From Anaeromyces robustus (lineage: Eukaryota; Neocallimastigomycota; Neocallimastigomycetes; Neocallimastigales; Neocallimastigaceae): a stretch of DNA of 26,429 bases. The stretch lies in NCBI GenBank assembly GCA_002104895.1, contig MCFG01000273.1, positions 67,501-93,929 of the forward strand, given 5' to 3'. The translations under genes were made by a program, and so were the position numbers. Under the pieces are notes generated by a model. It saw nothing but the letters and a program-made list of their open reading frames with translations. It ran no database searches and was not told where the DNA came from. This document shows positions 527 to 23,696 of this stretch, in pieces (the stretch's first letter is position 1; every line of letters begins with the position of its first letter).

Positions 527-1098
527 TGTAACGGTATCAACAACGACATTAAGGAACTTCGTGGCTCAACGGTAACTACTTCTACCTTTATCATAGATAT
601 CACTGGTTCGAATCCTACTTTTACCTTTTTGATTTGGAAAATTATTCATTTATTTAGTTATTAATACATTTGTTCATTTACTTATTTTATTAATAGAATT
701 ATTTAGTCTATAATTATTCATTCACTTAGTTAGATTTATTTAGATATTAGTTATTCGTTCACTTAGATATAAATACGATTTTATTTAGATACTAATTATG
801 TATTCACTTAATTATAGTAATAGTTAAATAATTAAATATTTTGTTATTTAAATAAGTAAACCAATCACGTAATGATTTAGAATAAGTCTTGAATATAAAA
901 GAAATGTATTAATATTATTTTTACTCTTGGAGTCATTATTAATAAGAAAAATATTAAATATTTAAATATTAAATAAAATACAAAATAAATCCATAAACAT
1001 TATGTTTTAATATTGTGTTATTTATTTTGTTTGTTTATTTTATTTTAATTATTGAAATACTACAACAACCTAGTGAATTTCTCACTAAGTTCGTTACA
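527..1098 (+). mobile_element. LTR-like element with tRNA-type promoter, family A copy 1
   Basis: A 572-bp element with TGTAACG at the left end and CGTTACA at the right, a perfect 7-bp terminal inverted repeat of the TG...CA form used by LTRs. It is flanked by a perfect 5-bp target duplication, CAAGC (522-526 and 1099-1103), typical of retroviral-type integrase. It has no ORF. A box and B box motifs lie near the left end. Near the right end TAGTGA and TCACTA form a 6-bp hairpin, and ACTC/GAGT arms form a second small palindrome. A minus-strand copy of exactly the same length lies at 14378-14949; I saw one C/T difference in the promoter part, so both insertions look recent. It could be a solo LTR or an autonomous short non-coding element; no matching internal region is seen here. 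Confidence 0.85.
562..628 (+). promoter_or_regulatory. RNA polymerase III type-2 promoter (A box, B box) in element A1
   Basis: A box TGGCTCAACGG (562-572) and a perfect-consensus B box GGTTCGAATCC (605-615), 32 nt apart, the normal tRNA spacing. T4 and T5 runs follow just downstream and could terminate Pol III. The tRNA cloverleaf itself is not preserved: the D and T stems do not pair well. I read this as a tRNA-derived promoter rather than a tRNA gene. Confidence 0.7.
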
Positions 1099-1336
1099 CA
1101 AGCTTAGAATTTGTCAAAATTTGTATATATTTCTTAATAAAACTTCACAAAAATATTAATTATTTCACTCGTAATTAATAAAAGTCCACCTTTTCTCTTA
1201 AACTCTACGGTAGATAAAAAAAAATAAAAGATAATCCACAAAAATCTATAGCCGGTAGTTAACCAAATTCATAAGTTAAAAGATATTTTTTTAGCATCCA
1301 CAATTAGCAGTAGAAATTTCCTTGAGGCAGTGAAAA

Positions 1337-1380
<44 letters not shown>

Positions 1381-2440
1381 ATTATTTTAAAAATATTTTA
1401 AAAATATTTAAAAATATATAATTATATAAATTTTTTATATATATATATATATAATAATTATATAATAAAGGATTTATATATATATAATTCTACATTTTTT
1501 TTTATACGCAGATATAAAAAGATAATAATAATATTTTTAATAAATAAATATTTTATTATTTTTCATATTATAATGTCACTGTCACGGCCGGATTCTCCAC
1601 CAAATTTGATACAAGATAAACTTATATCTAATTATTTTATTTAAAGACAAGACAGCATGTTAAGTTTCCAACTGGATTATTTTCTAATTTAAATAAGTCT
1701 ACTAGGTCGAATGACTAATTATATAGTTTTTATAATTAAATAGTTTTTATAATTAAATAATATTTAAATAATAACTAAATTAATTGTAATGCAAATAACA
1801 CAATATTTATTTAATAATAATAATAACACTTTAAGATTAACTTTTTAATAGTAAATTTTATTTAAAAATAAGATATTGATAATATTAATATAACTATATA
1901 ATTCAGGTGTTAATAACCTTACAAAGAACATTAAATATAACTTTATGTTATGTTCTTTTATACTTTGTAAGTTTGATAATAATAATATAAAATATAATAT
2001 AAAATATTAATACATTAATTTAATACATTAATTTAAAGTGATACGTTAACGTATAATATAATTAATAATTTGTAATATAATAAGTTATTAATATCGATAT
2101 TAAATAGTAATAAAATTAATATATTATTCAATATAATTGAATATATATAAATAATATATATATTAAAATATATTATTAGATTATTTAAATAATCTTAAAT
2201 TATAATATTTAAAATAAAATATTATAATAATAATTATTATATATAATTATTATAAAAAATTATTAATAATTATTATAATAAATAATAATATTATATATCA
2301 AAATAATTGAAATTATAAATTCTAATTTCAATTGCACTTGATGTCTTGACAAAGATTTTATCTATATAAATTTTATAATTATTTATTTATGGATCCTTGT
2401 AAATATTTAATTATATTTTTATATTGTGTAAACCTTTAAA
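1099..2440. other. AT-rich spacer with palindromes and poly-T
   Basis: No coding sequence recognised. It contains an A8/T36 homopolymer block (1333-1376). An imperfect hairpin has arms CTTACAAAG (1918-1926) and CTTTGTAAG (1963-1971). A perfect 14-bp palindrome ATACGTTAACGTAT lies at 2041-2054. A GC-richer stretch near 1580-1600 precedes TGATACAAGATA, a sequence also found inverted near 470-480, so parts may be degraded LTR. Confidence 0.4.
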
Positions 2441-2545
2441 GTCCAATATCTCGCCAACCAGTGGTCCAAATGGGCTGAAATTCAGATATGTTGTAGCTCT
2501 CGAGCAGAGCTTCCCAATGAGCATAAAATCAAAGCGAAGCGGAGG
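2441..2545. other. GC-richer conserved-looking block of unknown nature
   Basis: About 100 bp with clearly higher GC than the surrounding AT desert. It includes ATCTCGCCAACC, a TGGTCC...GGGCTGA region and CTCTCGAGCAGAG, an imperfect palindrome around CTCGAG. It has no ORF of useful length and no recognised RNA family. It could be a fragment of a dispersed repeat. Nothing more can be supported from sequence alone. Confidence 0.3.
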
Positions 2546-2836
2546 AAATCTTCAATATTTGCCAAGTTATCGTTATTTTTCTTCTGATTATTTTTATTAA
2601 TATCTTAAGGGTTAAATTAAGTTGATTAATATTTATTTAATTTGTCCAAACCCTTTACAATATCAATTTAATTACTTTTTAATATTTGTTTATTTTATTG
2701 AAAATCGAATTTTAAGTGATTTAGTCAATAACGAAATTTAAATGTAATTGATCTATTAGTGAATTTCAATTTTAAATCCACTAATATTCGCGACATTTAG
2801 CCACAGTATGTTAATAGAAGAACCTTCCTATCCAAC

Positions 2837-3541
2837 TGTAACGAATCTCTCAATTAGTAAAATAGTAACCATGGTCTAGTGGTTAGTAACTATGACCATC
2901 TGGGCGAACACTCTGGGTTCGACCCACACCTTGTTCCAAATTTTATAAAAATTTTATTTTAAATTTATTTATTATAAATTTCTGTATTTTATTCTGTATT
3001 TGTTTCTGTATTTTATTTCTGTATTTCTTTATAGAATTACATGGAATGAAATTAGAAACTTTAAGAAAAAATTATATAATATTTCTTTATTTTTCTATGA
3101 GATTCATTTTATATCAAAATATCTTAGTTTCTAGCAATTTTTTATTATTTTTATGAACTTTTATTTTTAAAACTATTTTTCCGCAAAAAGTATAAATAGG
3201 TGTAAAACTTTTAGTTAAAATATTTTTCTTTGTGCTTTTATTCTTTTATAACTTTATATATATTAGTAATAATTAATTCATAAGTAGTTTGAAATACTAC
3301 AAAGATTAGTTATTAATAATTAATAAAACTAAATTCTAATAAAACATATTTTAAATAAAAATAAAATAAAACTTAAAACTAAATCTTACTAATATATATA
3401 TCTCGACACCGACCTTTCAGGTTAACAAAGGAAAGGTGTTCTGATATTGCAATAAGTATCTTTTATTTTAAATTTTATTTTGTTTGTGTTTACTTCAGAT
3501 TTTGGTGTCAATTGTAATATTGGAACTACCGTTCCGTTACA
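2837..3541 (+). mobile_element. LTR-like element with tRNA-type promoter, family B copy 1
   Basis: Starts TGTAACGAATCTC and ends GTTCCGTTACA. The A box TGGTCTAGTGG (2872-2882) begins 35 nt from the 5' end, the same offset as in family A. The B box GGTTCGACCCA (2916-2926) follows at tRNA-like spacing. The A-box region resembles eukaryotic tRNA-Glu/Asp genes. Downstream are repeats of a TTCTGTATTTTAT-like unit and a TATAAATAGG TATA box near 3191. Its 3' part is longer than in other copies. I found no target duplication (CCAAC against ATAAT), so the copy is old or one end is misplaced. Confidence 0.72.
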
Positions 3542-4391
3542 ATAATAATAATTATTCAGATATACAGAAAACGCCTTCAAATAATTTATGAAATATTAAT
3601 TAGAATAATAATAATAATTTATATAATATATTATAATAATTGTTAATTATTTTATAAAAAATTAGAATAGTTGATTATTATATTAATTTACAGAAATTCT
3701 TAGAATTCTAAAAATCTCAAAAAGATTTAAAATTTACTTAAGATCTTAAATAATTAAAAATATCCCATTTTATCTAGAATTAATTATACAGAAAAGATCA
3801 TAAAAATCCAAAGATAAAAATAATTAATATATAGATAAATAATTAAATAGTATACTAAGCAATTAAATAATTAAATAGTTAACTAGTTAGATAATTAGAA
3901 TAGTTATAAATCTAAATCTTAGATTATAAATTCTTATCATTAAATTTATTAATAGTTTATATAGTTTTATATTAGTTTTATATAGTTAGATTTTTATCAA
4001 TATTATTTTATTCATATATTTTATTTAAAATTATACATGTATAAATATATTAGCAATAGATTATAATAATTAAATGTATTAATAATTATTAGATTTAGAA
4101 AAAGTATAAATAAGGATTGAAATTACAATTCCTTTTAATCTTTGTAAGATTATTAAATAACTTAGAATTAATGACTTAATAATTATTATTTAAACTTTTC
4201 TTAATTAATTATTAATAAAAAATATTATTATAAAACTTAATTATTTTAAAACGTGTTCTTTTAATTAATTAATTAATTTATTGTGTATTAATAAATAAAT
4301 TTGCCTATTAATTATATATTTGTTTAATTAGTTATTTTGTTATTAATTAAACATCTTGACCTAACCATTATTAAACCAAAACTACCCACAT
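3542..4391 (+). mobile_element. Degenerate LTR of a self-priming gypsy family
   Basis: AT-rich and non-coding. TATAAATAA (4105-4113) is followed 39 nt later by CTTTGTAAGATTATT (GTAAGATTATT at 4144-4154). The same 11-mer occurs 38 nt after the TATA box in the intact gypsy LTRs (15241 to 15279), so this looks like the U3/R boundary of a related LTR. The right end may be the ...CCCACA near 4391; the left end is not defined. No primer-binding site follows, so it would be a solo or broken LTR. Confidence 0.45.
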
Positions 4392-5019
4392 TTAACACTA
4401 AAGCTTGGCCTTTTTTTTTTTTTTTATTAATCTAGTATTCATGGTTTTTATTTAGTTCATTAATTTTTATAAAATTTAAATAATAAAGTTTTTTATTATT
4501 AATAATAAGTATAAAATAAAAATATTTTCCAAATTTTTTAATCAGTATTAACAAACAGTCGTAACGAAAAATTTTTTAACTTTTAAAATATTATTGATTA
4601 TAGTTAGTATCGAAAAAATTTTATTTTCAAATTATTAGTGATTAACTCACATGATCATGATTAATAAAGTAAACCCAAACTATACTTGCCTTCCAAAAGC
4701 TTGTCATCCAACTTAAGTATCAAAAAAATAGGTTTGGTTTAAGCAGTGGGTCAGGTTAAGAAATTTAATTCATAACAAAATTAACTCATTAAACAAACAA
4801 ATATATATATATATATATATTTTAAATCATCATTCATTAAATTCTTGTGTAATAATTTATTTAAAATATAAACACACTTTTTTAAAAGAATTAGGTTTTA
4901 TAAAAATATTTGGCATAATAGGTTAGGTCAATATCATAATAAAAGCTTCAAAAAAAATTTTTTTTATTTAAAGTTACACGAAATTAATCTTAAATTCAAA
5001 ATTTTAATAACAAATAGTC
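4392..5019. other. AT-rich spacer
   Basis: No gene recognised. It contains a T14 run (about 4411-4424), an (AT)n microsatellite (about 4801-4820) and an A8/T8 palindrome near 4951. It lies directly upstream of the copia integrase fragment and may hold unrecognisable copia sequence. Confidence 0.4.
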
Positions 5020-6260
5020 AAAGCTAATTGCAAATATTGCAAAAATTTCAAAAATTAAAATAGATTGCCACACCAATAGTAATCCACCACTAAGAACAAA
5101 TCAAATAAACCCAATTATTTTACTCAGACATATAATGGATCCTATATCAACGAATCAACTAATAAATATAAATACATAATGACATTTATAGGTGAAAAAC
5201 TTGGATATCATTATTAAAATCAAAAGCCGATGCACCAAAAACAATCATTAACTTTATATATAAAATTAATTAATAATCAAAACCCAGGTAGGATAATTAA
5301 AATATTTAAAACAGACAATGGTAAAGAATATAACTGTAATAAATTGTAAAAAATAAATAAATAAATTATTTTAAACAATTATTTATATTTTTTGACCCAA
5401 TAGGTCAACACAGAAAGTAAGTCAGAATAGAATATGTTTTATAAGAAATATGTTTTATTAGATTTATTAAAATTTAAAAATTTATTCGTTTATTAATTAA
5501 TTTTGTAATGTTCTGAATTACTTATAATTAATTAATAAAATCGCGAAGAATTAATCATTTAAAAATTTTACACCTATTTATACTTTTTACGGAAAAATAG
5601 TTTTCTTTATAAAAAGTTATTTAAAATTTCTAGAAACTTTTGATTAAAAAAATCTTAGAAAAAATTAGAAAAATTTAATATAAAAGTTGTCTAAAATTTT
5701 TGATTATATTCTATTAATTTCTACGTAAAATACAGAAATAAAAATACAGAAATAAAATACAGAAATTTATAATAAAAAATTTTAAATAAAAATTTATTTT
5801 AAAAGTGGAAAGAATATGAGTCGAACATTACTAATTCTGAGTTTCGTTACACATACGAGGATTATGAAAAATATTTTTAGGAATTATGGTACAATAGACA
5901 ATAATAATGACCATATATATTGAGTGACCCTAAAATCGAATCCTACAAGATCAATAAACCAATTTTAATAAATCAAAATTATAATTGGTGTTATAATTTC
6001 ACTGATCACGTGATTGTCATAAATTTTTTAACCCAAAATAATATTAATGATCAAACTTTAATAACAACAACAATGATACTAATTATGATTTTAACCCTAT
6101 TCATACAATAACAATTATTATTCAACACCAAATGAAGATAATAACTTTATAAAACAATAAAAGTTTCTCAAAAGTGATATAGCTAACCCAAAAAATTAAT
6201 AATAAAAGACAACAAAATAATATTATTAAATATAAAGACCGTCTAGTCGCTAAGAGATAC
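5020..6260 (+). pseudogene. Ty1/copia pol fragment (integrase, linker, start of RT)
   Basis: A decayed plus-strand copia polyprotein with stops and frameshifts. Around 5030-5140 are traces of a Cys-pair zinc region. From about 5140 the frame gives a DPIS...YKYIMTFI stretch, and just before 5334 it gives IIKIFKTDNGKEYN. That matches the copia integrase core, with the second catalytic Asp in TDNG. Element B2 interrupts it at 5335-5851. After that come a KNIFRNYGT remnant, a low-complexity linker and, at the end (6214-6260), NNIIKYKDRLVAKRY. The last stretch matches the KARLVAKGY region of copia RT. Element B3 abuts the right end. Confidence 0.7.
5335..5851 (-). mobile_element. LTR-like element family B copy 2, promoter part deleted
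   Basis: Minus-strand orientation. The plus strand starts TGTAATAAATTG and ends GTTTCGTTACA. It aligns by eye with the copy at 19218-19783 over the TATA/TTTTTAC region and the CTGTAT-type repeats. A deletion has removed the A box and the middle of the tRNA-like part, leaving GTTCGACTCA joined to the left end. It lies inside the copia integrase, between KEYN and the downstream fragment. The flanking 5-mers ATAAC and CATAC match only partly, so the duplication is decayed or the end is off by a base. Confidence 0.7.
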
Positions 6261-6813
6261 TGTAACGAAACTTATAATCAGTAAATTAGTAAACATGGTG
6301 AAATACTTTAACCATTGATCTGAACTCTCGTGGGTTAGACTCACACTCAATCTCATTTTTATTATAAAAATTTTTATTTTTAGAAAAATTTATTATTTAC
6401 TTCTGTATTTTATTTCTGTATTTTATCATAAGAATTAATAGAATAAAATCAGAAATTTTCGGATAAAAATATATTATAATTTATCCTTTTTACATAAGAT
6501 TCTTTTTTATCAAAAAAAAAATTAAGTTTCGAGAAATTTTTAGAAACTTTTATGTTTCCTTCTTTTAAAAAAAAAAAAAAATTATTATTATTTTTCAAAA
6601 AATATAAATAGGTGTAAAATTCATTAATAAAATATTTTTAAAATTCGTGCTTTTATTAATTAGTTTATAAGTAATTTGAAATATTATAATAACTAATTAA
6701 TAATTAATATTTATACTTTAATAAAATTAATAAAACTTCTTTTTAACAAAACATATTTATTTTAAATTACTTATTAGTGTTTATAAACCTATTGTGTAAA
6801 CCCAATCGTTACA
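6261..6813 (+). mobile_element. LTR-like element family B copy 3
   Basis: Starts TGTAACGAAAC and ends CAATCGTTACA, about 553 bp. The tRNA-like part is eroded: the A box reads ATGGTGAAATAC and the B box GGGTTAGACTC. The TATA region (TATAAATAGGTG) and CTGTATTTTAT repeats are kept. It is closest to the copy at 10918-11446, sharing the start and the CCTATTGTGTAAA tail. No target duplication is visible (GATAC against TTGAT). It joins copia RT sequence on the left to gypsy integrase on the right, so a rearrangement may have used it as a junction. Confidence 0.7.
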
Positions 6814-8106: not shown

Positions 8107-8129
8107 TGTTGTAGAAACTACTCGAACTT

Positions 8130-8545
8130 AATCGATAAAATCTTATCGATTAAATTCTAAAAAATTCTAGTTTTTCTTTTTCTCTTAAATTTTATTTTCC
8201 CGAGATTCATTTTAAATCAAAAAATCTAAGTTTCTAGAACTTTTAATACTTTTTACAAACAAAACTGTTTTTCCGTAAAAAGTATAAATACGTGTAAAAT
8301 TTCGACTAAAGAAATATTTTTTCTTCGCGTTTTTATTAACTAGTTAAATAAGTAATTCGAAACATTACAATAACTAATTAATAAATAATTATACTTTAAA
8401 TTTAATAAAGATTAATAAAAAATTTTATTATAAAACATATTTTTTATTCTTAGTGTTGCCCTCCAAAACTTTTGTGTACTTTATTTAGTCCTTTTGAATT
8501 ACTTAAGGCTTGCGGACCTGTTGTCTACTTCACCCAAACATTACA
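8130..8545 (+). mobile_element. Truncated LTR-like element, family E copy 2
   Basis: It matches the element at 9956-10551 from TCTTATCGATTAAATTC to the ACCCAAACATTACA end. It shares the GTAAAAAGTATAAATA TATA region and the GGCTTGCGGACCTGTTG tail. The left end, including any tRNA-like promoter, is missing or unrecognisable, so the start is approximate. An 11-bp perfect stem with a 4-nt loop (8128-8138 with 8143-8153, around TCGAT) sits at the left edge. No target duplication is seen. Confidence 0.6.
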
Positions 8546-8604
8546 AAGAAATTGAAATATTTAAAGAAAATGAAAAATTAGCATTGAGAAAACTAAAAAA
8601 AGCT

Positions 8605-9071
8605 ATTCTAAATGAAGACAATTTTAAAGACGGATTAATAAATTTTAATGAAATAGAATGTAAAGAAAAGTGCTATGATGGACAGAAATTATATTTTAAT
8701 AATAATTAAATATATATTTTATTTTAAATTATATAACCAATCATGTAATAACTTAGAATAGATTTTGAATATAAAAACTTCATGTATTATTTTATTTTGA
8801 CTCTTGGAGTCAACATTAACCTTTCAATTAGTAATAAATAAAATAATAATATAAAACCATAAATAATTTAAATCTTTCAGTTTAATAGATATTTCAATAT
8901 ATTTTATTCGAGCTATTCATATTGTTGTTTTATTTATTATTAATTACTACAACAACCTAGTGAGAATAACTCATATTCGTTACATTCTAAATGAAGACAA
9001 TTTTAAAGACGGATTAATAAATTTTAATGAAATAGAATGTAAAGAAAAGTGCTATGATGGACAGAAATTAT
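8605..9071 (+). repeat. Perfect 88-bp direct repeat flanking a truncated element
   Basis: Positions 8605-8692 and 8984-9071 are identical over 88 nt by eye, beginning ATTCTAAATGAAG and ending GACAGAAATTAT. The 291-bp DNA between them is the 3' half of a family A element. An 88-bp duplication is far longer than the 5-bp duplications of the intact copies, so this is not a normal integration. Confidence 0.85.
8693..8984 (+). mobile_element. LTR-like element family A, 5'-truncated copy
   Basis: It shares with the right half of the element at 527-1098 the AACCAATCAYGTAAT region, TTGACTCTTGGAGTCAA and the CTACAACAACCTAGTGA...TTCGTTACA end. The left half with the promoter is absent. It breaks the coding fragment 8546-9193 and lies between the 88-bp direct repeats. 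Confidence 0.75.
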
Positions 9072-9193
9072 TCGAAAAAGTCAATGAAGATAAATCAAAT
9101 AACTTTAGTATGATGAATTACAATAAAATTTTAAAAAAAGGAGGTTTAAAACAACTCAACGAAAAATATTATTTAAATCTTTGTATAAATTAA

Positions 9194-9690
9194 TGCTTAC
9201 TCTTCAGGGAAATAGGGTTAAAAAAGGGTTTATTTAAAATAGATTACAACAAAAAAAACACAGACACTAAAATTAGAAAATACACAAATAAAATTTCGTT
9301 TTATTAAAATATTAATTTTAATTCTTATATTTACTTTTTATTAATAAAACTTATAACAATTACATTTTTCTCAAATTACATGAAATTTTCTTGACTATTT
9401 ATATTTTTTACTAATTATATTATAATATATATTTCCTATTTATTTATAATATATTTCTATATAAAACTATCCTAATGAATTTTATTTATGAATAAAATAT
9501 AAACTATAACTAAATTTAGTAAACTAAAATTACTAATTTAAACTATATACTATTTTATTTGAATTTATTCTCTTTATTATTTATTTATTATTCTAATATT
9601 AATACTATATTTATTATCTATTTTGAATTTAAAAACAATGGAAAATTTCATAAATTAAAATAAATCCATTAATCACGTGACAAATATGTA
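9194..9690 (-). mobile_element. Degraded relative of the solo LTR at 7101-7738
   Basis: Non-coding AT-rich DNA that aligns in order with 7130-7600. Shared stretches include AAAATAGATTACAACA, TATAACAATTACA, the TTATTATTTATTTATTATTCTAATATTAATA tract and AAAACAATGRAAAATTT. The terminal part with the GCGCAT hairpin is missing and the ends are uncertain. Orientation is inferred from the better copy. Confidence 0.5.
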
Positions 9691-9955: not shown

Positions 9956-10551
9956 TGTAATGATATGGATCCATTATGGTTACCAATTAGGCTCACTTCT
10001 ACCTACTTCTATTATCGTAATTGGTTGTCTCTGGTTCGAACTTTACTCTCTACCTCTTGGAATAATAATATTTATTTAATTAATAATAAATACATTCATT
10101 CAATTATTAAATAATAATTTACTTAAAATTAATAATATATAAAATCTTATCGATTAAATTCTAAAAGATTCTAGTTTTTTCTTTTTATCTTAAATCTTAT
10201 TTTCACGAGATTCATTTTAAATCAAAAAATCTAAGTTTCTAGAACTTTTAATACTTTTTACAAACGAAAACTATTTTTCCGTAAAAAGTATAAATATGTG
10301 TAAAATTTCGACTAAATAAATATTTTTTCTTCGCGTTTTTATTAACTAGTTAAATAAGTAATTCGAAACATTACAATAACTAATTAATAAATTATTATAT
10401 TTTATATTTAATAAAAATTAATAAAACATTTTCTAATAAAACATATTCTAATTTACTGTGTCTTTTATCTTTTCAAATCCTTTCGTGTTTCCCATTATTT
10501 TGAATTACTTAAGGCTTGCGGACCTGTTGTTGAATTCACCCAAACATTACA
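9956..10551 (+). mobile_element. LTR-like element with tRNA-type promoter, family E copy 1
   Basis: Begins TGTAATGATATGG directly after copia protease sequence and ends ACCCAAACATTACA. A B-box-like GGTTCGAACTT lies at 10033-10043, with possible A boxes upstream (TGGTTACCAAT or TAGGCTCACTT); this promoter is weaker than in A and B. A TATA box sits near 10289 in the shared GTAAAAAGTATAAATA context. No 5-bp target duplication is visible. The 3' third is repeated in tandem immediately afterwards. Confidence 0.62.
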
Positions 10552-10917: not shown

Positions 10918-11446
10918 TGTAACGAAACTTATAATCAATAAATTAGTAACCATGGTTTAGTGGTTAAATACTATGACCATCGAGCTGAACTCCTTGGGTT
11001 CGACTCACACTCATTCTCAATTTATAAAAAATTTTTTATTTTAAGAAAAATTTATTATTAATTTCTGTATTTTATTTCTGTATTTTATTTCTGTATTTTA
11101 TCATAGAAATTAATAGAATAAAATCAGAAATTTTCGGATAAAAATTTTTTATAATTTATCCTTTTTCCATAAGATTCTTTTTTATCAAAAAAATTTAAGT
11201 TTCGAGAACTTTTTAGAAATTTTTATTATTTTCAAAAAAATATAAATAGGTGTAAAATTCATTAATAAAATATTTTTAAATTCGTGCTTTTATTAATTAG
11301 TTTATAAGTAATTTGAAATATTATAATAACTAATTAATAATTAATATTTATACTTTAAAATTAATAAAACTTATTTCTAACAAAACATATTTATTTTAAA
11401 TTACTTTATTGTTTATTAAACCTATTGTGTAAAAGCAAACGTTACA
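10918..11446 (+). mobile_element. LTR-like element with tRNA-type promoter, family B copy 4
   Basis: 529 bp, starting TGTAACGAAAC and ending AAACGTTACA, with a perfect 5-bp target duplication ATAAA (10913-10917 and 11447-11451). The A box TGGTTTAGTGG begins 35 nt from the end, and the B box GGTTCGACTCA follows at tRNA spacing. TTTCTGTATTTTA occurs three times in tandem, and a TATAAATAGG box lies near 11240. It is close to the copy at 6261-6813 but better preserved. Confidence 0.82.
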
Positions 11447-13346: not shown

Positions 13347-13382
<36 letters not shown>

Positions 13383-14345: not shown

Positions 14346-14377
14346 ATTTGTTTTATTGTTATTATTATTATTATTAT

Positions 14378-14949
14378 TGTAACGAACTTAGTGAGAAATT
14401 CACTAGGTTGTTGTAGTATTTCAATAATTAAAATAAAATAAACAAACAAAATAAATAACACAATATTAAAACATAATGTTTATGGATTTATTTTGTATTT
14501 TATTTAATATTTAAATATTTAATATTTTTCTTATTAATAATGACTCCAAGAGTAAAAATAATATTAATACATTTCTTTTATATTCAAGACTTATTCTAAA
14601 TCATTACGTGATTGGTTTACTTATTTAAATAACAAAATATTTAATTATTTAACTATTACTATAATTAAGTGAATACATAATTAGTATCTAAATAAAATCG
14701 TATTTATATCTAAGTGAACGAATAACTAATATCTAAATAAATCTAACTAAGTGAATGAATAATTATAGACTAAATAATTCTATTAATAAAATAAGTAAAT
14801 GAACAAATATATTAATAACTAAATAAATGAATAATTTTCCAAATCAAAAAGGTAAAAGTAGGATTCGAACCAGTGATATCTATGATAAAGGTAGAAGTAG
14901 TTACCATTGAGCCACGAAGTTCCTTAATGTCGTTGTTGATACCGTTACA
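14378..14949 (-). mobile_element. LTR-like element with tRNA-type promoter, family A copy 2
   Basis: 572 bp on the minus strand, with a perfect target duplication ATTAT (14373-14377 and 14950-14954). Its length, ends and sequence match the element at 527-1098; the one difference I noticed is in the A box (TGGCTCAATGG here). The B box GGTTCGAATCC is unchanged. It lies in the Asn-coding part of the copia remnant, 38 bp from the left edge of the gypsy element. Confidence 0.87.
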
Positions 14950-14987
14950 ATTATTATTGATATTTGTTTTGTTGTTTAATTTTAAAA

Positions 14988-15461
14988 TGTTAAGGATTTG
15001 AATGGATTATAGATATAAGCCACATTATATCTATTAAATATTTATTATTCAGCATGTTTATGCGCCCCAAATCCTTATACAATTTAATTATTATTAATTT
15101 TATTAATAATACAGTTGAATATAAATTATACTTTTATTTTATTAACAAATTATATTCTTATCTTATATTATTTTAATATATATTACTATAATTAATATAA
15201 ATATTAATTTACTTATATTATTGTATTGTTCAATGAAATGTATAAAAGATTGATGAAATATGTATTCTTACATTCTTTGTAAGATTATTAACCTAATAAT
15301 AATCTAATAAAATATAATTATAAAATAATTAAACAAATTTAAATAAAGAAACTATATTTATAATAAAACTTATAATAAAATTAATATTAGTGAACACCCT
15401 ACGTATTAGATTATTGAGCATTTCGACCAAGTTAAACTTTAAACCAAACTAAAACTTTACA
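14988..15461 (+). repeat. 5' LTR of the gypsy element
   Basis: TGTTAAGG ... ACTTTACA, 474 bp. U3 opens with a long-range inverted repeat, TAAGGATTTG (14991-15000) with CAAATCCTTA (15068-15077). It encloses a GATATAA/TTATATC hairpin and TATGCGCCCC. TATA is at 15241, and the predicted RNA start is at 15279. AATAAA-type polyadenylation motifs follow in R/U5. Confidence 0.92.
15241..15289 (+). promoter_or_regulatory. Pol II promoter and predicted RNA start of the gypsy element
   Basis: TATAAAAG at 15241, and GTAAGATTATT at 15279-15289, 38 nt downstream. The 5' end assignment rests on two points: this 11-mer is the exact complement of the sequence abutting the LTR, and a related LTR shows the same TATA-to-11-mer spacing (4105 to 4144). 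The first ATG downstream is the gag start. Confidence 0.65.
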
Positions 15462-15471
15462 ATAATCTTAC
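15461..15471 (+). promoter_or_regulatory. Primer-binding site, self-priming type
   Basis: AATAATCTTAC overlaps the last base of the LTR. It is perfectly complementary over 11 nt to GTAAGATTATT at 15279-15289. This is the arrangement known from Tf1 and sushi-type chromoviruses, where the 5' end of the element RNA folds back, is cleaved and primes reverse transcription. I did not recognise a tRNA 3'-end complement here. Confidence 0.75.
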
Positions 15472-15495
15472 CTGCTGTTTTGTAACTTCCTTGGA

Positions 15496-16695
15496 ATGCC
15501 AAAGTTCTCCTTAAGAAAAAACACGGGTTATTCTGCTAAATCGGACGAAGAAATGGAGATGAATCAAGAAGATTCAGTTCAACAATTAAGAATAGAAGCC
15601 TCACAAGCCTGCAATTCCTTAGCTGAAGGGCTTGAACAATTAAGTAATGAGACTTCCCAAGCTTGCTCAAATATTATGTCTGGAGTAAATCAAGGCTTCG
15701 TCTCAAAGGATGATTTGCAATGTTACCATCAAGAGGTAATGAAACAATTTCAATCCTACGAGCGTGCTAATAATGAGATAATGAACTCTTTAGAATCTCT
15801 GAAAAAGGCTACTCTCTACTTTAAGCGCGAACTTACACAAAGAGAGAGACTTTATCCTGGTGCTACGGCTTCTACTAGCGAACAACCAACTCCTGTAGCT
15901 ACCACTTCTGCTCCTCAAGCTACTTTCGATGATAACGCTTCTACTACTACCAGGTTTGACGTAGACAACGACGTTATCATGAGAACAGCTTTTCCCTATA
16001 CTGTTGCTCAGGTACCGGAACCTGGTCTTTTTTACGGCGATATCTCCGAAATTGAACTATTCTGTCAACTTTGCGGAGATACATTCAAAACTTATCCTTG
16101 TAAGTTATGGCCCGAAGAAGCAAAAATCAACTTCGTTCAGTCTAGGTTGCGTGGAGCTGCAAGAAGTTGGTATCAAACAAAATATCCTATTGGTACTATT
16201 CCATCCTCTTTATGGACCCTTCTAGGAGAATTAAAAAGAGCCTTTCCTGATGTCGTTAACAGGAAACTAAAGAAGATTAAATTAGCCAATATAAAGCATA
16301 ATTACGGAAAAATCAATGAGTATATTGATGAATTCCGTAAGTTAACTGCTGATTTAGCTTGGCCTGAAGAACCTTTAGCTTTATTCTTTTATAAAGGTCT
16401 TCATCCTAAATACAAGGATGAAATAAACAAAATGGAAAAGTTTCCTGAGAAGCTCGAAGAAATCATAACAAAGTGTATCTTGTTAGAGTCTTCTCAAGAA
16501 ATGAATGCAAAGATCAGTCAGTTCTCCGGAAATAGAACTGACAAGAAGAAAAATTCAAGTTCCCGTCCGCAGAATACCGAAAAGAAGAACAAAAATACTA
16601 ATTTTAATAAAAACAATAATTTTTACAATAAGTCTAAAAACAACAGTAACGACAACCGCGTTACTGATGTTCAAAAGATCAGTTCAAAAAACTAG
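15496..16695 (+). CDS. gag: Gag, Ty3/gypsy (399 aa)
   Basis: Structural protein of the retrotransposon particle. The ATG at 15496 is the first after the predicted RNA start, which supports it. The N-terminal 110 residues are acidic and probably helical (NEIMNSLESLKK region), and a Thr/Ser/Pro-rich linker follows. The retrotransposon-type gag core spans about 170-330, with LFYGDISEIELFCQL, FVQSRLRGAARSWY, FRKLTADLAWPEE and FYKGLHPKYKDEI. The tail is Asn/Lys-rich and basic with no CCHC zinc knuckle, as in Tf1 Gag; the basic tail may bind RNA instead. It ends SKN-stop with the stop codon directly behind a slippery heptamer. GC is visibly higher than in flanking DNA. The frame is intact. Confidence 0.9.
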   Translation: MPKFSLRKNTGYSAKSDEEMEMNQEDSVQQLRIEASQACNSLAEGLEQLSNETSQACSNIMSGVNQGFVSKDDLQCYHQEVMKQFQSYERANNEIMNSLESLKKATLYFKRELTQRERLYPGATASTSEQPTPVATTSAPQATFDDNASTTTRFDVDNDVIMRTAFPYTVAQVPEPGLFYGDISEIELFCQLCGDTFKTYPCKLWPEEAKINFVQSRLRGAARSWYQTKYPIGTIPSSLWTLLGELKRAFPDVVNRKLKKIKLANIKHNYGKINEYIDEFRKLTADLAWPEEPLALFFYKGLHPKYKDEINKMEKFPEKLEEIITKCILLESSQEMNAKISQFSGNRTDKKKNSSSRPQNTEKKNKNTNFNKNNNFYNKSKNNSNDNRVTDVQKISSKN

Positions 16696-16740
16696 TTGAT
16701 GGACTTCAAAAGAAGTCCTCTCCTTTGAACTTCTCAAAGG
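16686..16740 (+). promoter_or_regulatory. -1 ribosomal frameshift signal between gag and pol
   Basis: AAAAAAC (16686-16692) is phased X XXY YYZ in the gag frame and is followed at once by the gag stop TAG. After an 8-nt spacer comes a perfect 7-bp hairpin with a 4-nt A loop, GGACTTC (16701-16707) with GAAGTCC (16712-16718). A second 7-bp hairpin follows, CCTTTGA (16722-16728) with TCAAAGG (16734-16740). Pol is open in the -1 frame from 16668, so a slip here gives Gag-Pol. Heptamer, spacing, stem and frame all agree. Confidence 0.82.
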
Positions 16741-19217
16741 AAGTTCAACATAACTTAACTACCCTAAACAATAGTCTCCCTGAATCATTTTTCTCATTTA
16801 AATCACACATTCTCATTTTAAATGAGAATAACAAAATTATTAAATACCAAGTTAGATCCATTCTAGATACTGGATCACTTTGCAACTTTATTTCATCAAA
16901 TCTTGTTAAAAAACTTAATTTAAATATTAACAAATGTCAAAGCAAAATTTTAATAAAAGGAATTAGTGGAGATACAGATTCAATAAATCGCTTTGTATCT
17001 CTTAAATTTCAAATAAAATTATTAATCAATAAGAAATTCAGATTTATCCGTTTTAAACAAAAATTTTTGGTCTCAGACCATCTCCCTGTCGATTTACTTC
17101 TTGGTAATCAATTTATGGAGAAATATAAAATCCACTATAATTATCGAAATAAATATGTTTATTCTACTCTTAGTTTAAATCATTTTAAAGATGATTTAAT
17201 AAAAACTTTTTCTTATAATAAAAATAATAAGTCAAATCAGTATAATTATAATTTTTTAATTTACTCTTTTCTTTCACAAAAAGATGTCTCTGGATCTGAG
17301 GAACCTAACATTGAAGACATCCCAGAACCATATAGAGATCTTGCAGTTGTCTTTAGCAAAAAAGAAGCAGACAAACTCCCTCCACACCGTCTTACCGATT
17401 GTGAAATTATATTAAAAGATGGTGCTACCCTCCATTATGGTCCTATCTACCAATTATCCTTAGAAGAAGAAGAAACTCTCAAGGAATATATCGAAGACAT
17501 GTCAGAAAAGGGCTTTATCAGAGAATCTAACTCTCCTGCAGGTTATCCTGTCTTATTCCAGAAGAAACGTGATGGTTCTCTTAGACTTTGCGTTGATTAT
17601 AAAAAATTAAATGCGGTTACTGTTAGAAACTCTTATCCAATTCCGCTTATCAGGGATATAATCGAACGCGTGAAGGGAGCAAAATACTTTACTAAATTAG
17701 ATTTACGCTCCGCTTATAATTTAATTAGAATTAAGGAAGGTGACGAATATAAAACTGCCTTCCGTACTAAATATGGTCATTACGAATACTTAGTAATGCC
17801 ATTTGGATTAAAAAATGCCCCAGCTGTCTTCCAATCGTTTATTAATTCTGTTCTTAGACCATTTTTAGAAAAATCAGTTATTTTGTATCTTGATGATATA
17901 CTCATCTACTCTGAAAATCTAGAAGAACATCATAAAACTGTTCGTGATGTTCTTAAGAAGTTAATTGAAAACAACTTGTTCGCTAAACTATCTAAATGTG
18001 AATTCGATAAAGACAAAGTCGAATTCTTAGGTCACGTAATCTCAGGATCAGGTATATCTACCGACCCGAAGAAAATCAAGACAATTGAAGAATGGCCTGT
18101 CCCTAAATGTGTAAAGGATGTGCAAAGATTCGTTGGTCTTTGCAATTACTATAGAAGATTTGTAAAGGACTTCTCCTCAATCGCTAAACCTTTACACACT
18201 TTAACAAAAAAGGGGAAGAAATTTATCTGGTCTCCAGAATGCGACTCCGCATTCTCAATCTTAAAGAAACGTTTGACGACTTCTCCCGTCCTTCTCCATC
18301 CCGACAATACTAAGCAATTTATTGTCGAATGCGACGCTAGCAATTTTGCTATTGGCGCTGTACTTTCGCAATATGATGAGGATAACAAACTTCATCCTGT
18401 TGCGTACCATTCGAGAAGTCTTAATAACGCAGAACTGAACTATCCAATTACTGATAAAGAACTTTTGGCTATTAAGGATTCTTTCTCTACCTGGCGTCAT
18501 CTCTTATTAGGTGCTAAGTTCAAGGTGAAAGTATTCACCGATCACAAGAACTTAATATACACTCTTGGTGGTAAAATTGGTAACCAACGACAACATCGTT
18601 GGCATTTATTTTTCCAAGAGTATGATTTCGAACTTATTTATCGCCAGGGTAATAAAAACGGAAAGCCAGATTCTCTATCAAGAAGACCGGACTACGTAAA
18701 AGATGATATAGAAGAAGAACCAGAGTTCATTTTGGATAAAAAGAACATTAGCTCTACTCCCTGTTTGATTAGTATAACAAATGATTTTCTCTCGAATATT
18801 AAAAAGCATCTTAAAAATGATCCTGTAGCCGAAGACCTTCGTCTTTACTTCGCTCCCAATAATGCAAATCAAGATTATTTTTATAAACCGTTCAGAAAAA
18901 TGAACAAATTTAAAATCGAAGACAATCTTATATTTTATAACAATTTAATATATATTCCTAAGGAACTTCGCTTAGAAATACTCATGAGATATCATGAGAC
19001 TCCCGCCGCCGGTCATTTAGGTGTCAAAAGAACCTTGGAACTTATCTCTAGGAACTTTTGGTGGCCTAAAATGGAAGACGATGTCAAAGACTTTGTTAAA
19101 TCATGCGAAACATGCATGAGAAATAAAAAGTCAAGACATCGAAAATTTGGATTACTTCAACCCTTAGAAGTTCCTGAAAGACCTTGGAAATCAATTGAAA
19201 TCGACTTTCTTTGTGGG
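16690..19217 (+). CDS. pol: Pol, first part: protease, RT, RNase H, integrase N-terminus (broken)
   Basis: Expressed by -1 frameshift, so it needs no start codon; the first codon after the slip is near 16690. Numbering from 16725: the aspartic protease has DTGS at 48-51 and a later LPVDLLLGNQF strand. RT spans about 215-420, with FTKLDLRSAYN, MPFGLKNAPAVFQ and the catalytic YLDD at 17886-17897 (residues 388-391). RNase H runs from about 535, with ECDAS (first Asp 537), KELLAI and VFTDHKNL, ending PDSLSRRPDY. The integrase zinc domain has H757...GHLG...C..C in CETCMRNK. IEIDF carries the first catalytic Asp (827). The frame then enters the element inserted at 19218 and stops at 19232. No stop occurs before the insert, so pol was intact until then. 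Confidence 0.88.
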
Positions 19218-19783
19218 TGTAATAAATTGTAAAAAATAAGTAAATTATTTTACACAATTATTTTGATTGACCCAACAGGTCTACACAAAAAGTAAATCAG
19301 AAAAGAAAATTGGTTTTATAAGAACTTGTTTTATTAGATTTATTAAAAGTAAAAATTTATTTATTTATTAATTAATTTTGTAATATTCTGAATTACTTAT
19401 AATTAATTAATAAAATCGCGAAGAATTAATCATTAAAAAATTTTACACCTATTTATACTTTTTACGGAAAAATAGTTTTCTTCGTAAAAAGTTATTTAAA
19501 ATTTCTAGAAACTTTTGATTAAAATCTTATAGAAAAATTTAGAAAAATTTAATATAAAAGTTGTCTTAAATTTTTGATTGTATTCTATTAATTTCTACGT
19601 AAAATACAGAAATAAAAATACAGAAATAAAATACAGAAATTTATAATAAAAAAAATTTAAAAAATAAAATTTTAATAAAGTTTGTAACAAGTGTGAGTCG
19701 AACCCAGAGTGTTCGCCCAGATGGTCATAGTGACTAACCACTAGACCATGGTTACTATTTTATTAATTGTGAGATTCGTTACA
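19218..19783 (-). mobile_element. LTR-like element with tRNA-type promoter, family B copy 5, inside pol
   Basis: 566 bp with a perfect target duplication GTGGG (19213-19217 and 19784-19788), TGTAACG...TTACA on the minus strand. The A box TGGTCTAGTGG starts 35 nt from its 5' end, and the B box reads GGTTCGACTCA. CTGTATTTTATT repeats follow, then CTTTTTAC and GTAAAAAG arms next to TATAAATAGG. Removing it with one duplication copy joins the integrase frame exactly. It therefore landed after the gypsy inserted, making it one of the youngest events here. It contains no ORF. Confidence 0.92.
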
Positions 19784-19788
19784 GTGGG

Positions 19789-20829
19789 CTTCCTCCTTCC
19801 AAAGGTTATACAGTAATAATGGTAGTTGTTGATCGCTTTTCTAAAATGATACACCTTGTTCCATTTAAGGATATACCCAATGCAGCACAAACAGCTAAAG
19901 CTTTTATCAATTCAATTTATAGACTGCATGGGCTTCCTTACGATATAATAACTGATAGAGGAACTCAATTTACTAGTGATTTATGGCAAGAGTTCCTTCT
20001 TATTTTAGGTGTTCAATCAAAAATAGCAACTACCGACCACCACGAAACCGTTGGACAAGTTGAACGATGTAACTCCTACATCGAACAATACCTCCGCTGT
20101 TTCTCAAGATCCTTTTATCACAATGACTGGGCTGACTTCCTACCGCTAGCTGAGTTTGCCTACAACAACTCAATTCACCCTTCTACCAACGAAACTCCCT
20201 TCTTTGTAAATTATGGATTCCACCCGTATATGGACGAATTCACTCTACTTCCAACAACTAATATAAATCACAAAACCATTCAAAAGGTTGCCGAAGGATT
20301 CAATCATATACAGGATGTCCTTCTCCGTTCTCAAGAATTATACAAGCGCGCATCCGATAAGAAGAGAATGACCGCTCCTACGTATAAGATTGATGATCTT
20401 GTCTGGATACAAGCTCCTCCTTCTTTGAACCTCGAATCCAGCTCTAAACTCGCTCCCTGTAAATATGGTCCATATAAGGTAACCAATGTCCTCCACAACA
20501 ACAATTATGAAATTGATTTAAAAAAGTCACCTTTTCCTAAACATTACAACGTTTTCCATGTTTCAGAATTAGAACCTTTCATTCCTGTGCCCACTCGTTT
20601 CTCCAAAAGAAACATAGATCCTGAATCTATCAAGGATATAGTTGAAATTTCTGGTTTCAGAACTAATTACAAGAAGAAACAGTACGAATATAGAGTTCGT
20701 TATAAATATCGTACTGCTTATAATTGGGTTCCATCTTCTGAAGTCGAAGATAACCCTCGAAACCAACGCATTTTTATGGAATACCTTAATAGTAATAGAA
20801 CCTCTGCTTCTATTAGTTATGACAACTAA
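19789..20829 (+). CDS. pol: Pol, second part: integrase core, GPY module and chromodomain
   Basis: Continuation of pol, separated by the 566-bp insert and now in a different frame. It opens LPPSKGYTVIMVVVDRFSKM. Numbered from the ATG at 19819: catalytic Asp 46 (ITDRGTQF) and Glu 82 (GQVERCN) are spaced DX35E as expected. YGPYKV at 216-221 marks the GPY/F module, followed by HVSELEPF. The last 65 residues (about 273-323: DIVEISGFR, YEYRVRYKYRTAYNWVPSSE) look like a divergent chromodomain, which in chromoviruses directs integration to particular chromatin. Some aromatic-cage positions differ from the usual pattern. Alone this piece lacks the first catalytic Asp, so the integrase is not functional as it stands. 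Confidence 0.87.
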   Translation, partial: LPPSKGYTVIMVVVDRFSKMIHLVPFKDIPNAAQTAKAFINSIYRLHGLPYDIITDRGTQFTSDLWQEFLLILGVQSKIATTDHHETVGQVERCNSYIEQYLRCFSRSFYHNDWADFLPLAEFAYNNSIHPSTNETPFFVNYGFHPYMDEFTLLPTTNINHKTIQKVAEGFNHIQDVLLRSQELYKRASDKKRMTAPTYKIDDLVWIQAPPSLNLESSSKLAPCKYGPYKVTNVLHNNNYEIDLKKSPFPKHYNVFHVSELEPFIPVPTRFSKRNIDPESIKDIVEISGFRTNYKKKQYEYRVRYKYRTAYNWVPSSEVEDNPRNQRIFMEYLNSNRTSASISYDN

Positions 20830-20941
20830 TTTTTATTTTTTTTAATAATTTTTTTTAGATAATTTATCAATATTTTTTTATTCTACTTTTTGCACCACTT
20901 TTTTGCCACTACCCTCTGTTTGCTTCCGACTATTTTTTTTT

Positions 20942-20989
<48 letters not shown>

Positions 20990-21976
20990 ATCAAAAAATT
21001 TTCAAAAAATTTTTTATCAATTAAAATATTTTTCAAATAATTTTTCAATTTAATTTTCAAAAAATTTTTATCAATTAAAATATTTTTTCAAATAATTTTT
21101 TCAATTTAATTTTCAAAAAATTTTATCAAAAATTTTTAAATAATTTCAAATAAATTTTTCATTTTTTCAAAAAATTTTTTCAAATTAATTATTCAAAAAA
21201 TTTTTTCAATAAATTTTTAATAAAATTTTTCAATTAAATTTTTCAAAAATTTTTCAATAAATTTTTTCAAAAAGAAAAATAAAAATTTTTTTTTCTTTTC
21301 ATATATAAAAAATCATTTTTTCTGTGATACCCATGCACATGGGGTATTTTTCAGAAATTTTTGATTTTTTCATTAATTAAAAATCAATTGGGCTATCCAT
21401 ATAGCCTAAAAAATTTTTAATATAAATTAATAATAAATTAATTAATAAATTAAGATTTGAAAAATCAATACTTTTTTAAAATTTTTAAATTTTTCAAAAA
21501 TTTCAAAAATTTCAATCTACAGCCAAAAATTAAATTTTTTAAAAATTTTTTAAAATTTAATTTTTAAATCAAAAATATTTTTTTTTAAATATAAAAATAT
21601 ATAATTATCAATTTTATAATTTTATTAATATCAATATATTAATATCAAAATTTATAAAATATTTATATCAATATCAAATTTATAAATATAAATATCAATA
21701 TTAATATTAAAATATTCTTATCAATATATATTATATTTTATTAATATTTAATAATAATATTATATTCAACAAATTTTTATATTCCAAAAATTTTATTATC
21801 TTTTATTTTTCACATGGCCAATCGAACTTTTGTTCGAGTGAAATTTAAAAGATTATTTTTAAAGTATACTTTAATCTAAAAAACTTCAAACTTTATCTTT
21901 ATAAAATTTTATATTTAAATTTTGATTATATAACTCTTTGAATTCGCCTGGAATACGAATTCTTGGAAGAGGACGT
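20830..21976 (+). other. Gypsy 3' non-coding region with hairpins
   Basis: About 1.15 kb between pol and the 3' LTR, with no ORF. It holds an A44 run (20943-20986) and an array of degenerate TTTTTCAAAAAATT units (about 20985-21270). Four short hairpins stand out. ATACCCATG/CATGGGGTAT is at 21327-21347, and GGCTAT-CCAT-ATAGCC at 21391-21406. TCGAAC-TTTT-GTTCGA is at 21822-21837. GAATTCG (21940-21946) pairs with CGAATTC (21956-21962), next to the purine tract. Confidence 0.75.
21963..21976 (+). promoter_or_regulatory. Probable polypurine tract of the gypsy element
   Basis: TTGGAAGAGGACGT ends directly at the 3' LTR start. The GGAAGAGGA core is purine-only but short and is interrupted by CGT just before the LTR, so the assignment rests mainly on position. 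Confidence 0.5.
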
Positions 21977-22450
21977 TGTTAAGGATTTGAATGGATTATA
22001 GATATAAGCCACATTATATCTATTAAATATTTATTATTCAGCATGTTTATGCGCCCCAAATCCTTATACAATTTAATTATTATTAATTTTATTAATAATA
22101 CAGTTGAATATAAATTATACTTTTATTTTATTAACAAATTATATTCTTATCTTATATTATTTTAATATATATTACTATAATTAATATAAATATTAATTTA
22201 CTTATATTATTGTATTGTTCAATGAAATGTATAAAAGATTGATGAAATATGTATTCTTACATTCTTTGTAAGATTATTAACCTAATAATAATCTAATAAA
22301 ATATAATTATAAAATAATTAAACAAATTTAAATAAAGAAACTATATTTATAATAAAACTTATAATAAAATTAATATTAGTGAACACCCTACGTATTAGAT
22401 TATTGAGCATTTCGACCAAGTTAAACTTTAAACCAAACTAAAACTTTACA
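21977..22450 (+). repeat. 3' LTR of the gypsy element
   Basis: 474 bp, TGTTAAGG...CTTTACA, without a visible difference from 14988-15461. TAAAA follows at 22451-22455, matching the left flank. Confidence 0.92.
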
Positions 22451-23223
22451 TAAAAATTCTTTTTCATTATTATGTGTTTTTAAGTAATTTCTTAAATTTT
22501 TTATATAGAAATGGCCAAGCCGTCGATGCCAATATAGTTCATCGACATTCTGAGAATTATGCATGACCATAATATTATTTTTATTGTTTTTAAATTTATA
22601 CTTTGATAAACAATAGCCATAAATATTAATTTCATTTCTTTTATTAGATTTATAAGTTGCTATTGTTTTGTAGTTTGAATCTAGCAATCTAAGAATAAAA
22701 TTGTAGTTTAATTTTTCAATTAAAACTTTTATTCCTGATTTGGCTAGTTCAATACCACTAATCATGTTTTTTGTTACATTTTTTGAATATAAAACATGAT
22801 TTAATTTCAAAGTATGTTTATTTACCTTTAAGTCTACTTCACCATAGCCTTCAAACTTGCAGACAGTACCATTAGCGCATTTTAAAGTTATTTTCTCGTT
22901 CTTAAAGTTCTTTAAAATATTTTTATTGTTAGTTATATGTTCTCCAGCGCCTGAATCATATAACCACTCAATTTTGTTATTTTTATTTTTATTTTTATTT
23001 AATAAATTTTTAATATTCTTTAAATTTCTGGAAATACGCGTGTTTTTATATTTATTATTAATATTTTCATAATTATTATCGTGATTATTATAATTTATAA
23101 AGTGTAATGATTTATTATCATCATTTTCATTGTACACTTTATTGTCAATATTGTATTTTAATTCATCAGAGTTAAAATCATTATTATATTCATCATTTAA
23201 TTCGAAATTGTTCATATAACCAT
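22451..23223 (-). pseudogene. Copia remnant: protease and pre-integrase domain
   Basis: Open on the minus strand from at least 23215 (MNNFELNDEYNN; the true frame extends to the element at 23224). An Asn-rich N-terminal part is followed by EWLYDSGAGEHITNN (active-site DSGA). LKCANGTVCKFEGYGEVDLK and a KLNHVLYS strand complete a copia protease. LYWHRRLGHFYIKNLRNYL is the gag-pre-integrase domain with its HXXXGH-like motif. The frame is cut at the gypsy insertion. Across it (14982 downward) it continues straight into the Asn-rich linker with no integrase core, so the parent copia had already lost integrase. Confidence 0.8.
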
Positions 23224-23696
23224 TGTAACGAATACTAGAAATTATAGAGTTGGCTTACTCGTTAAGCTCTAGAACTCTGCTCAGTATTCCTGGGTTCAAT
23301 ACACAGGAATGCCTTTTGTTAAAATTTATATTTTTATTTTTTACTATTTTATTATTTTATTTTTTTATTATTATTTTATTATATATTAATATATTATAAA
23401 GTGTATTAAATGATAATATTATTTTATTATAAAAAGGTTAATAGACCAATTAGATTTAGAATATAATAACTCATGAAAAATGTAATTAAAATATTTTGAA
23501 ATAATGTTTATAAATATTCAAGAATTTTCTCATTTGAAAATTCGAGTTTTTATTAACAAAGAAATAATAAAATAAATAAAATTATTTGATACTAACCTGT
23601 TGTTTGTTTGTGTCCAATAATTCTTGTTTATTTTCTAATATTGAGGTGTTTTTAAGTTTATTAAGAATTATTATTGTTGGACTTCTGTTCTTTACA
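23224..23696 (+). mobile_element. LTR-like element with tRNA-type promoter, family D
   Basis: Starts TGTAACGAATACTAG and ends GTTCTTTACA, about 473 bp. The A box TGGCTTACTCG begins 27 nt in, and the B box GGTTCAATACA follows after 31 nt. ATTCCTG and CAGGAAT form a 7-bp stem around the B box, like an extended T arm. The body differs from families A and B. It lies just upstream of the copia remnant's open frame. Flanks ACCAT and ATAAA do not match, so an end is wrong or the duplication has decayed. Confidence 0.6.

Follow-up and report, generated by a model that had tools for sequence, protein, structure and literature searches.

The window analysed here is a 26,429-nucleotide (nt) stretch of the gut fungus Anaeromyces robustus (GenBank MCFG01000273.1, positions 67,501 to 93,929, forward strand), the end of contig C194 in an assembly of 70.2 Mb and 769 contigs, and it holds several families of long terminal repeats (LTRs) that carry the A and B boxes of a tRNA-type RNA polymerase III (Pol III) promoter close to one end. 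Base composition is near 20% GC across the window except in one element, termed G. We refer to the LTR families as A, B, C, D and G, and to variants of B as V. Both strands were searched for pairs in which an A box (TRGYNNARNNG, one mismatch allowed) starts 38–50 nt ahead of a B box matching GGTTCRANNC exactly, and six such pairs were returned, with A/B starts at 562/605, 2872/2916, 10953/10997 and 23251/23293 on the plus strand, and 19748/19704 and 14914/14871 on the minus strand. The initial annotation had listed 11 LTR-like intervals with such promoters. All six pairs lie inside these, but five of the intervals lack a good pair: a B-type copy from which the A box is gone (5335–5851, minus), a B-type copy damaged by one mismatch in each box (6261–6813, plus), two headless fragments (8130–8545 and 8693–8984) and a chimeric LTR with a poor A box, in which a C-type head of ~184 nt is joined to a body like that of fragment 8130–8545 (9956–10551, plus).

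The box-bearing copies are genuine LTRs. Two are solo A LTRs, one at 527–1098 (plus; target-site duplication (TSD) CAAGC; A box 562–572, B box 605–614, TATAAA at 894 and a self-primer sequence, discussed below, at 929–939), the other at 14378–14949 (minus; TSD ATAAT; A box 14904–14914, B box 14862–14871), which stands head to head with the G element. A B LTR without a perfect TSD occupies 2837–3541 (plus; A box 2872–2882, B box 2916–2925, TATAAA 3191, self-primer 3232–3241), and B-type variant LTRs lie at 10918–11446 (plus; TSD ATAAA; A box 10953–10963, B box 10997–11006) and, inside the pol gene of G, at 19218–19783 (minus; TSD CCCAC in element orientation; A box 19738–19748, B box 19695–19704). 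Thus TG...CA ends with perfect 5-bp duplications, as annotated, are found in four of the 11 intervals (527–1098, 14378–14949, 10918–11446 and 19218–19783). The last copy, at 23224–23696 (plus; A box 23251–23261 with one mismatch, B box 23293–23302, TATAAA 23509, self-primer 23544–23553), does bear the boxes but is no solo LTR: it is the 5′ LTR of a D element that reaches the contig end. Its primer-binding site (PBS; 23697–23708, plus) is complementary to the D self-primer sequence, and its gag-pol gene begins with the Ty3 capsid at 25764 and stops with the contig at 26429 (plus). A long (CAATTT)n-like repeat array fills 23912–24432 of the D leader and is present at a second D locus (L089) too. 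A Copia-type Pol fragment with a Pol_BBD domain (22424–23215, minus) adjoins the G insertion and ends just short of the D LTR.

Whole LTRs were shuffled with dinucleotide composition kept, and the box pair recurred in 0 (A), 0 (B), 1 (D), 1 (the 10918 copy) and 0 (the 19218 copy) of 3000 shuffles. Genome-wide, the pattern TGTAACG-N45..74-GGTTCRANNC matched 412 times and the same pattern read backwards once. Measured from the LTR start, the boxes begin at nt 36 and 79–80 in A and B and at nt 28 and 70 in D, so that the annotated rule of an A box exactly 35 nt in holds for the A and B-type copies and fails for D, whose A box also has one mismatch. We compared 93 distinct LTR copies (A 31, B 32, D 30; near-whole copies only, duplicates removed) and found both boxes in all 93, the D copies being scored with D's own one-mismatch A box. 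The C family has an exact B box and an A box with two mismatches. The box pair is found in several unlike LTR heads. A plus-strand comparison at E ≤ 1e-3 showed no similarity among the bodies of A, B and D; the A and C bodies are related (72% over 425 nt). ARAGORN and a relaxed Rfam search found no tRNA in the window. As an aside, the A box lies inside a hairpin in B-type (2872–2900, 10953–10981), E and D heads, with seemingly compensating stem changes among 13 sequences, and no such hairpin was found in A, C or F; a role at the RNA level is possible, and this set was not used as evidence.

Copies elsewhere in the genome bear out that these are LTRs and not short interspersed nuclear elements (SINEs). 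Among the 93 copies, 19 (A), 11 (B) and 4 (D) are solo, with perfect 5-bp duplications around 15/19, 9/11 and 2/4 of them; a fixed internal start directly follows 5 (A), 11 (B) and 16 (D) copies, and a fixed purine-rich end directly precedes 7 (A), 10 (B) and 10 (D). Full two-LTR elements with an internal region were recovered for each family: A measures 572 + 514 + 572 nt, 1,658 nt in all (TSD GAAAT, one mismatch between LTRs; a second LTR pair has TSD ATAAG and no mismatch), B 5,147 nt (TSD CATAT, identical LTRs) and D 7,510 nt (TSD CATAG, identical LTRs). Full A, B, D and G elements all show TG...CA LTR pairs, a PBS, a polypurine tract (PPT) and matching 5-bp TSDs, the make-up of LTR retrotransposons, and the variable A-rich tail, variable-length TSD and missing LTR pair of a SINE were not seen. 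SINE heads can be tRNA-like, and the heads described here do look like them; even so, an origin as SINE insertions, as tRNA pseudogenes or through boxes arisen by chance in AT-rich DNA is ruled out by the 5-bp duplications, the two-LTR elements and the pattern and shuffle counts given above, and we assign it a negligible probability. In C, LTRs of 592–593 nt enclose 661 nt (~1,850 nt overall). C-type LTR heads recur at ~1,250-nt spacing on contig C505 (20706, 21957, 23211, 24462), resembling multi-LTR concatemers of C.

The coding content differs between families. At locus L089 (3103–7413) the D open reading frame (ORF) is intact and encodes 1,436 amino acids (aa) with a Ty3 capsid, reverse transcriptase (RT), RNase H, integrase, an SH3_Tf2-1 domain and a chromodomain; D is thus a Ty3/gypsy chromovirus by its Gag, RT, RNase H, integrase after RT and chromodomain. 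The B element (locus L090) has a single ORF of at least 80 aa, 614 aa long, which encodes Gag plus a protease-like stretch just below Pfam cut-offs and is 47% identical to D across 433 residues; B therefore lacks the RT and integrase of an autonomous Ty3/gypsy element. The longest Met-start readings of the internal regions are 46 aa in A and 36 aa in C. The G element (14988–22450, plus; 7,463 nt; TSD TAAAA; identical 474-nt LTRs at 14988–15461 and 21977–22450) encodes gag (15496–16695) and pol (16725–19232 and 19819–20829, plus, split by the insertion at 19218), its pol is 49% identical to that of D, and a chromodomain search gave no hit. Before the 3′ LTR, the sequence GGAGGACCA is common to B, C and D and GGGGGGTAT takes its place in A, which hints at a shared reverse-transcription machinery. 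With the RT region of D as query, a protein equal in length to D's Gag-Pol matched at 100% in jgi, lgn and ena sources, and the nearest hit bearing a gut-fungus name among the best 120 of 7,906 was an Orpinomyces model (78%). Five contigs from rumen metagenome-assembled genomes were 42–57% identical and showed no direct repeats of at least 60 nt; in three of them a likely LTR start is represented by 44, 55 and 76 nt, which contain no A box (at most one mismatch) and stop short of the B-box position. A protein scan of viral contigs gave 11 pattern matches with no relative among them, and a nucleotide pattern scan of viral contigs gave at least 120 stretches, 80 of them listed with a single match each, which we judged to be chance and did not use.

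All these families appear to prime themselves. Directly after the 5′ LTR come 10–11 nt complementary to a stretch of the element's own LTR that lies 35, 41, 35 and 38 nt past TATAAA in A, B, D and G respectively, and complementarity of this length arose in 0 (A), 2 (B), 23 (D) and 5 (G) of 2000 dinucleotide-shuffled LTRs; in C, for which no shuffles were run, 10 nt are complementary, 35 nt past TATAAA. Complementarity and TATA spacing both fit self-priming of the Tf1 type with a predicted RNA 5′ end. We considered the tRNA-like part of the LTR as the primer, and set this aside since the PBS pairs with mid-LTR sequence. We infer that in A, B and D the mid-LTR TATA promoter would start the genomic RNA, whose 5′ end would pair with the PBS behind the 5′ LTR and prime reverse transcription, as in Tf1. 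The G LTR has a self-priming site (15279–15288, plus) and no A or B boxes, so the boxes are not simply a part of self-primed LTRs.

The coexistence of a TATA box and a self-primer in the same LTRs makes an RNA polymerase II (Pol II) site, and not the A and B boxes, the most likely start of the genomic RNA. It is hardly conceivable that this RNA is a Pol III product started at the boxes, the route suggested for Helenus elements and known for Cassandra, although the layout resembles that described for Helenus LTRs and A and C are short. Pol III terminates at T-runs, and runs of at least four T start 5–26 nt past the B box (LTR nt 91–115), with runs of at least five T by LTR nt 100–254, all upstream of the self-primer, which lies at LTR nt 321–403, ~250–325 nt 3′ of the B box; D, 7.5 kb long, holds 11 runs of six or more T. 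With T-runs so soon after the B box, a Pol III RNA should end inside the LTR, and transcription of a whole element from the boxes is unlikely.

The position of the G element points to what the boxes may do. Its head faces that of the minus-strand A LTR across a gap of 38 nt (14950–14987), placing the G end 73 nt from the A box, and this arrangement recurs through the assembly. We surveyed 419 entries (418 distinct LTR starts), covering 48/48 A, 51/51 D, 68/68 G, 83/83 V and 100/146 B heads together with 69 C heads, which are the 86-nt matches among 100 of 117, with family assigned by length where the letters were unseen. Eighteen pairs of heads face each other less than 400 nt apart, and in 15 of them the gap is 36–41 nt. 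All 15 join A, B or V with C or G (B-G 4, A-G 3, B-C 3, V-G 2, A-C 2, V-C 1), and the other three join B/V with B/V at 212, 338 and 387 nt. Random shifts of C and G copies by up to 2 kb gave on average 0.11 pairs at 36–41 nt and never more than two (2000 trials). Counted to the A box, the distance from the C or G end is 71–76 nt (mean 73.1). At a further locus (L074) a G copy lies 66 nt upstream of a tRNA-Trp gene predicted by ARAGORN, whose A box starts at base 8 and hence also 73 nt away. Insertion at a fixed distance upstream, the mark of Pol III targeting, is thus seen for G and C in 15 of the 18 pairs and before a real tRNA gene in one case. A candidate pair of another kind, an A tail 52 nt from an A head, proved to be a broken A element, the gap opening with A's internal start.

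In the whole genome, an exact B box stands 100–130 nt in front of 11 G heads, always at 115–119 nt, and the reversed pattern was found in none; nine of these heads belong to the 15 pairs described above, the other two (on contigs C65 and C554) being unclassified. As a control, we asked which LTR ends face A plus B boxes, leaving out ends with less than 110 nt of outward sequence: 0/79 heads and 0/77 tails of A, B, V and D do so, against 4/7 G heads and 3/6 C heads, each of the latter two counts containing at least one inward-facing end. The loci in this control were picked around A, B and D copies and are biased accordingly, and the A-box rule is blind to D-type targets.

Head-to-head pairs by themselves give no order of insertion, and one could imagine that the C and G copies were there first and that A and B inserted ahead of them. 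In the same survey, however, C or G tails stand before B, V or D heads in the same orientation in seven cases (38, 37, 38, 29, 37, 50 and 27 nt; tail-first distances assume LTR lengths), and no A, B, V or D tail stands before a C or G head. This asymmetry suggests that C and G are the later insertions, in either orientation, with the box-bearing head as target; a G copy also lies before a tRNA gene, and we regard the reversed order as extremely unlikely. C and G therefore look like later arrivals than the box-bearing LTRs. The gap sequences of five of the 15 pairs, of one head-to-head pair at L056 and of one tail-first pair at L087 were read, and all seven differ, which indicates independent insertion events. 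The L087 case (1000–1973) is a G LTR standing tail-first 27 nt before a D LTR, 54 nt from its A box and off the usual distance.

Most of the targets seen are LTR heads that start with TGTAACG, so the integrases of G and C might read the DNA of the head itself. We consider this very unlikely, as the tRNA-Trp target has only the A and B boxes in common with the LTRs, and the distances agree when measured from the A box and not from the edge of the target (66 nt to the tRNA gene versus 36–41 nt to an LTR); neither C nor G heads turned up as targets of each other, a result of little power given the few cases.

Taken together, we think it probable that the LTRs of A, B and D carry two promoters and that Pol III factors bound to A and B-type copies guide the insertion of G and C. 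The owners of these LTRs would be self-primed Ty3/gypsy-type retrotransposons (Gag-Pol in D, Gag in B) and short relatives without long ORFs (A and C). At the outer end of the LTR's U3 part, a tRNA-type promoter, whose A box starts at nt 36 or 28 and whose B box starts at nt 70–80, would recruit Pol III factors to A and B-type copies, making the LTR edge resemble a tRNA gene; any Pol III product would be limited to a short RNA ending within the LTR, and G and C would follow Pol III promoters and insert ~73 nt upstream of the A box. In our reading, the spacing of G and C insertions records, like a footprint made in nature, where Pol III factors occupy A and B-type LTRs.

Several observations weigh against this explanation. 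None of the 51 D heads has a C or G head-to-head neighbour within 400 nt, and the two G copies that lie beside D stand tail-first, 54 and 77 nt away from its A box; another tail-first case (contig C267) lies at 64 nt. The comparison with tRNA genes rests on one gene, and near a second tRNA-Trp gene (L044) neither end of G or C gave a hit. At most 11 of the ~68 G heads (a count by a longer head pattern that includes some inward-facing 3′ LTRs) face an exact B box, and the heads at L087 and L071 face none. Boxes vary little inside young families, so their conservation within a family proves little.

A variant in which the boxes are bound but silent, with TFIIIC (perhaps also TFIIIB) guiding G and C integration, no Pol III transcription, and boxes that are relics of a captured tRNA-promoter SINE or terminal-repeat retrotransposon in miniature (TRIM), is unlikely but deserves some weight. 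It would accommodate the A-box mismatch tolerated in D and the poor A box of C, and a Pol III start is needless where self-priming provides one; against it stand the presence of both boxes at fixed places in every copy compared and in several unlike heads, and a spacing equal to that at the tRNA gene.

LTRs with tRNA-type promoters are already known in miniature elements, contrary to the initial annotation, which knew of no such class and also missed the second, TATA-linked start in these LTRs, the coding members and the fixed-distance insertions in front of the boxes. Helenus (TRIMp3), in print since 2024 (Kojima 2024, PMC10886601), comprises TRIMs of 311–1263 bp with tRNA-like A and B boxes in the LTR, and in fungi it is linked to Copia and found in Basidiomycota. 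The families described here resemble Helenus, in the parts of that paper drawn on, in the boxes within the LTR (in A, B and D), the 5-bp TSDs seen in fungi, a PBS and PPT, many solo LTRs and several families per genome. The Helenus PBS is mostly complementary to a tRNA; the PBS here is complementary to the element's own LTR. The families differ from Helenus in size and coding content: Helenus elements are non-coding, whereas A (1,658 nt) and C (~1,850 nt) exceed its range and B (5,147 nt) and D (7,510 nt) are coding, self-primed Ty3/gypsy families. The main text of PMC10886601, as far as it was available, has no mention of Neocallimastigomycota or of self-priming, and it considers unlikely an autonomous partner that shares a long LTR stretch with Helenus. 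It does note that not a few Repbase LTRs resemble part of a tRNA, of which only TRIMs under 1000 bp were followed up, so longer tRNA-like LTRs may sit unreported in Repbase. In Cassandra, a non-autonomous element of land plants whose RNA is reportedly made by Pol III (PMC10886601, same parts), the likeness is a Pol III promoter within the LTR and the difference its 5S rRNA type, against the tRNA type here.

For priming, the closest parallel is Tf1, whose RNA pairs with the PBS through its first 11 bases (PMC7175516). Here the first 10–11 bases of the predicted RNA are likewise complementary to the PBS, and D shares with Tf1 a single Gag-Pol ORF with a Tf2-1-like SH3 domain and a chromodomain; the tRNA-type promoter in U3 is a difference, none being mentioned for Tf1 in the sections of PMC7175516 that were seen. 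Targeting of Pol III genes by retrotransposons is well known, and in the parts of PMC5911963 and PMC4600332 consulted Tj1, a self-primed Ty3/gypsy element with a 5-bp TSD that inserts upstream of tRNA genes, is the nearest to G. It too is self-primed with a 5-bp duplication, but Tj1 inserts 1–10 bp before the start site in one orientation, whereas G and C use both orientations, lie ~66 nt before the tRNA gene and are mostly seen before promoters borne by other elements. Among the best matches of a literature search, mostly open-access, we found nothing on coding elements whose LTRs have a tRNA-type promoter, on LTRs that serve as Pol III landing sites, or on LTRs studied in gut fungi; coding, self-primed Ty3/gypsy hosts and the use of their LTRs as landing sites appear to be new.

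The published picture, as far as the sources seen go, is of tiny non-autonomous elements whose RNA is expected from Pol III. In coding, self-primed elements with a probable Pol II start beside it, the promoter should have a role other than making genomic RNA. Elsewhere, tRNA genes can keep chromatin open or insulated, and the benefit to the element that we favour, at clearly less than even odds, is that bound factors hold the LTR in an open or insulated state within silent, AT-rich surroundings. It is conceivable, if somewhat short of an even chance, that coding self-primed Ty3/gypsy elements retain a working Pol III promoter at the U3 edge as a docking site (boundary, anti-silencing or decoy) and not for genomic RNA, the LTR being a mobile pseudo-tRNA gene and G and C forming a second guild, which seeks out Pol III and lives on these mobile targets. 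The fixed insertion distance, matching that at a real tRNA gene, suggests that the cell treats A and B-type repeats as tRNA-like genes, and the constant distance at which G and C insert offers a genetic readout, within the assembly itself, of the LTRs marked by the Pol III machinery. This would place mobile elements in a chain in which some serve others as tRNA-like landing sites, a proposal that may be tested in any gut-fungus genome.

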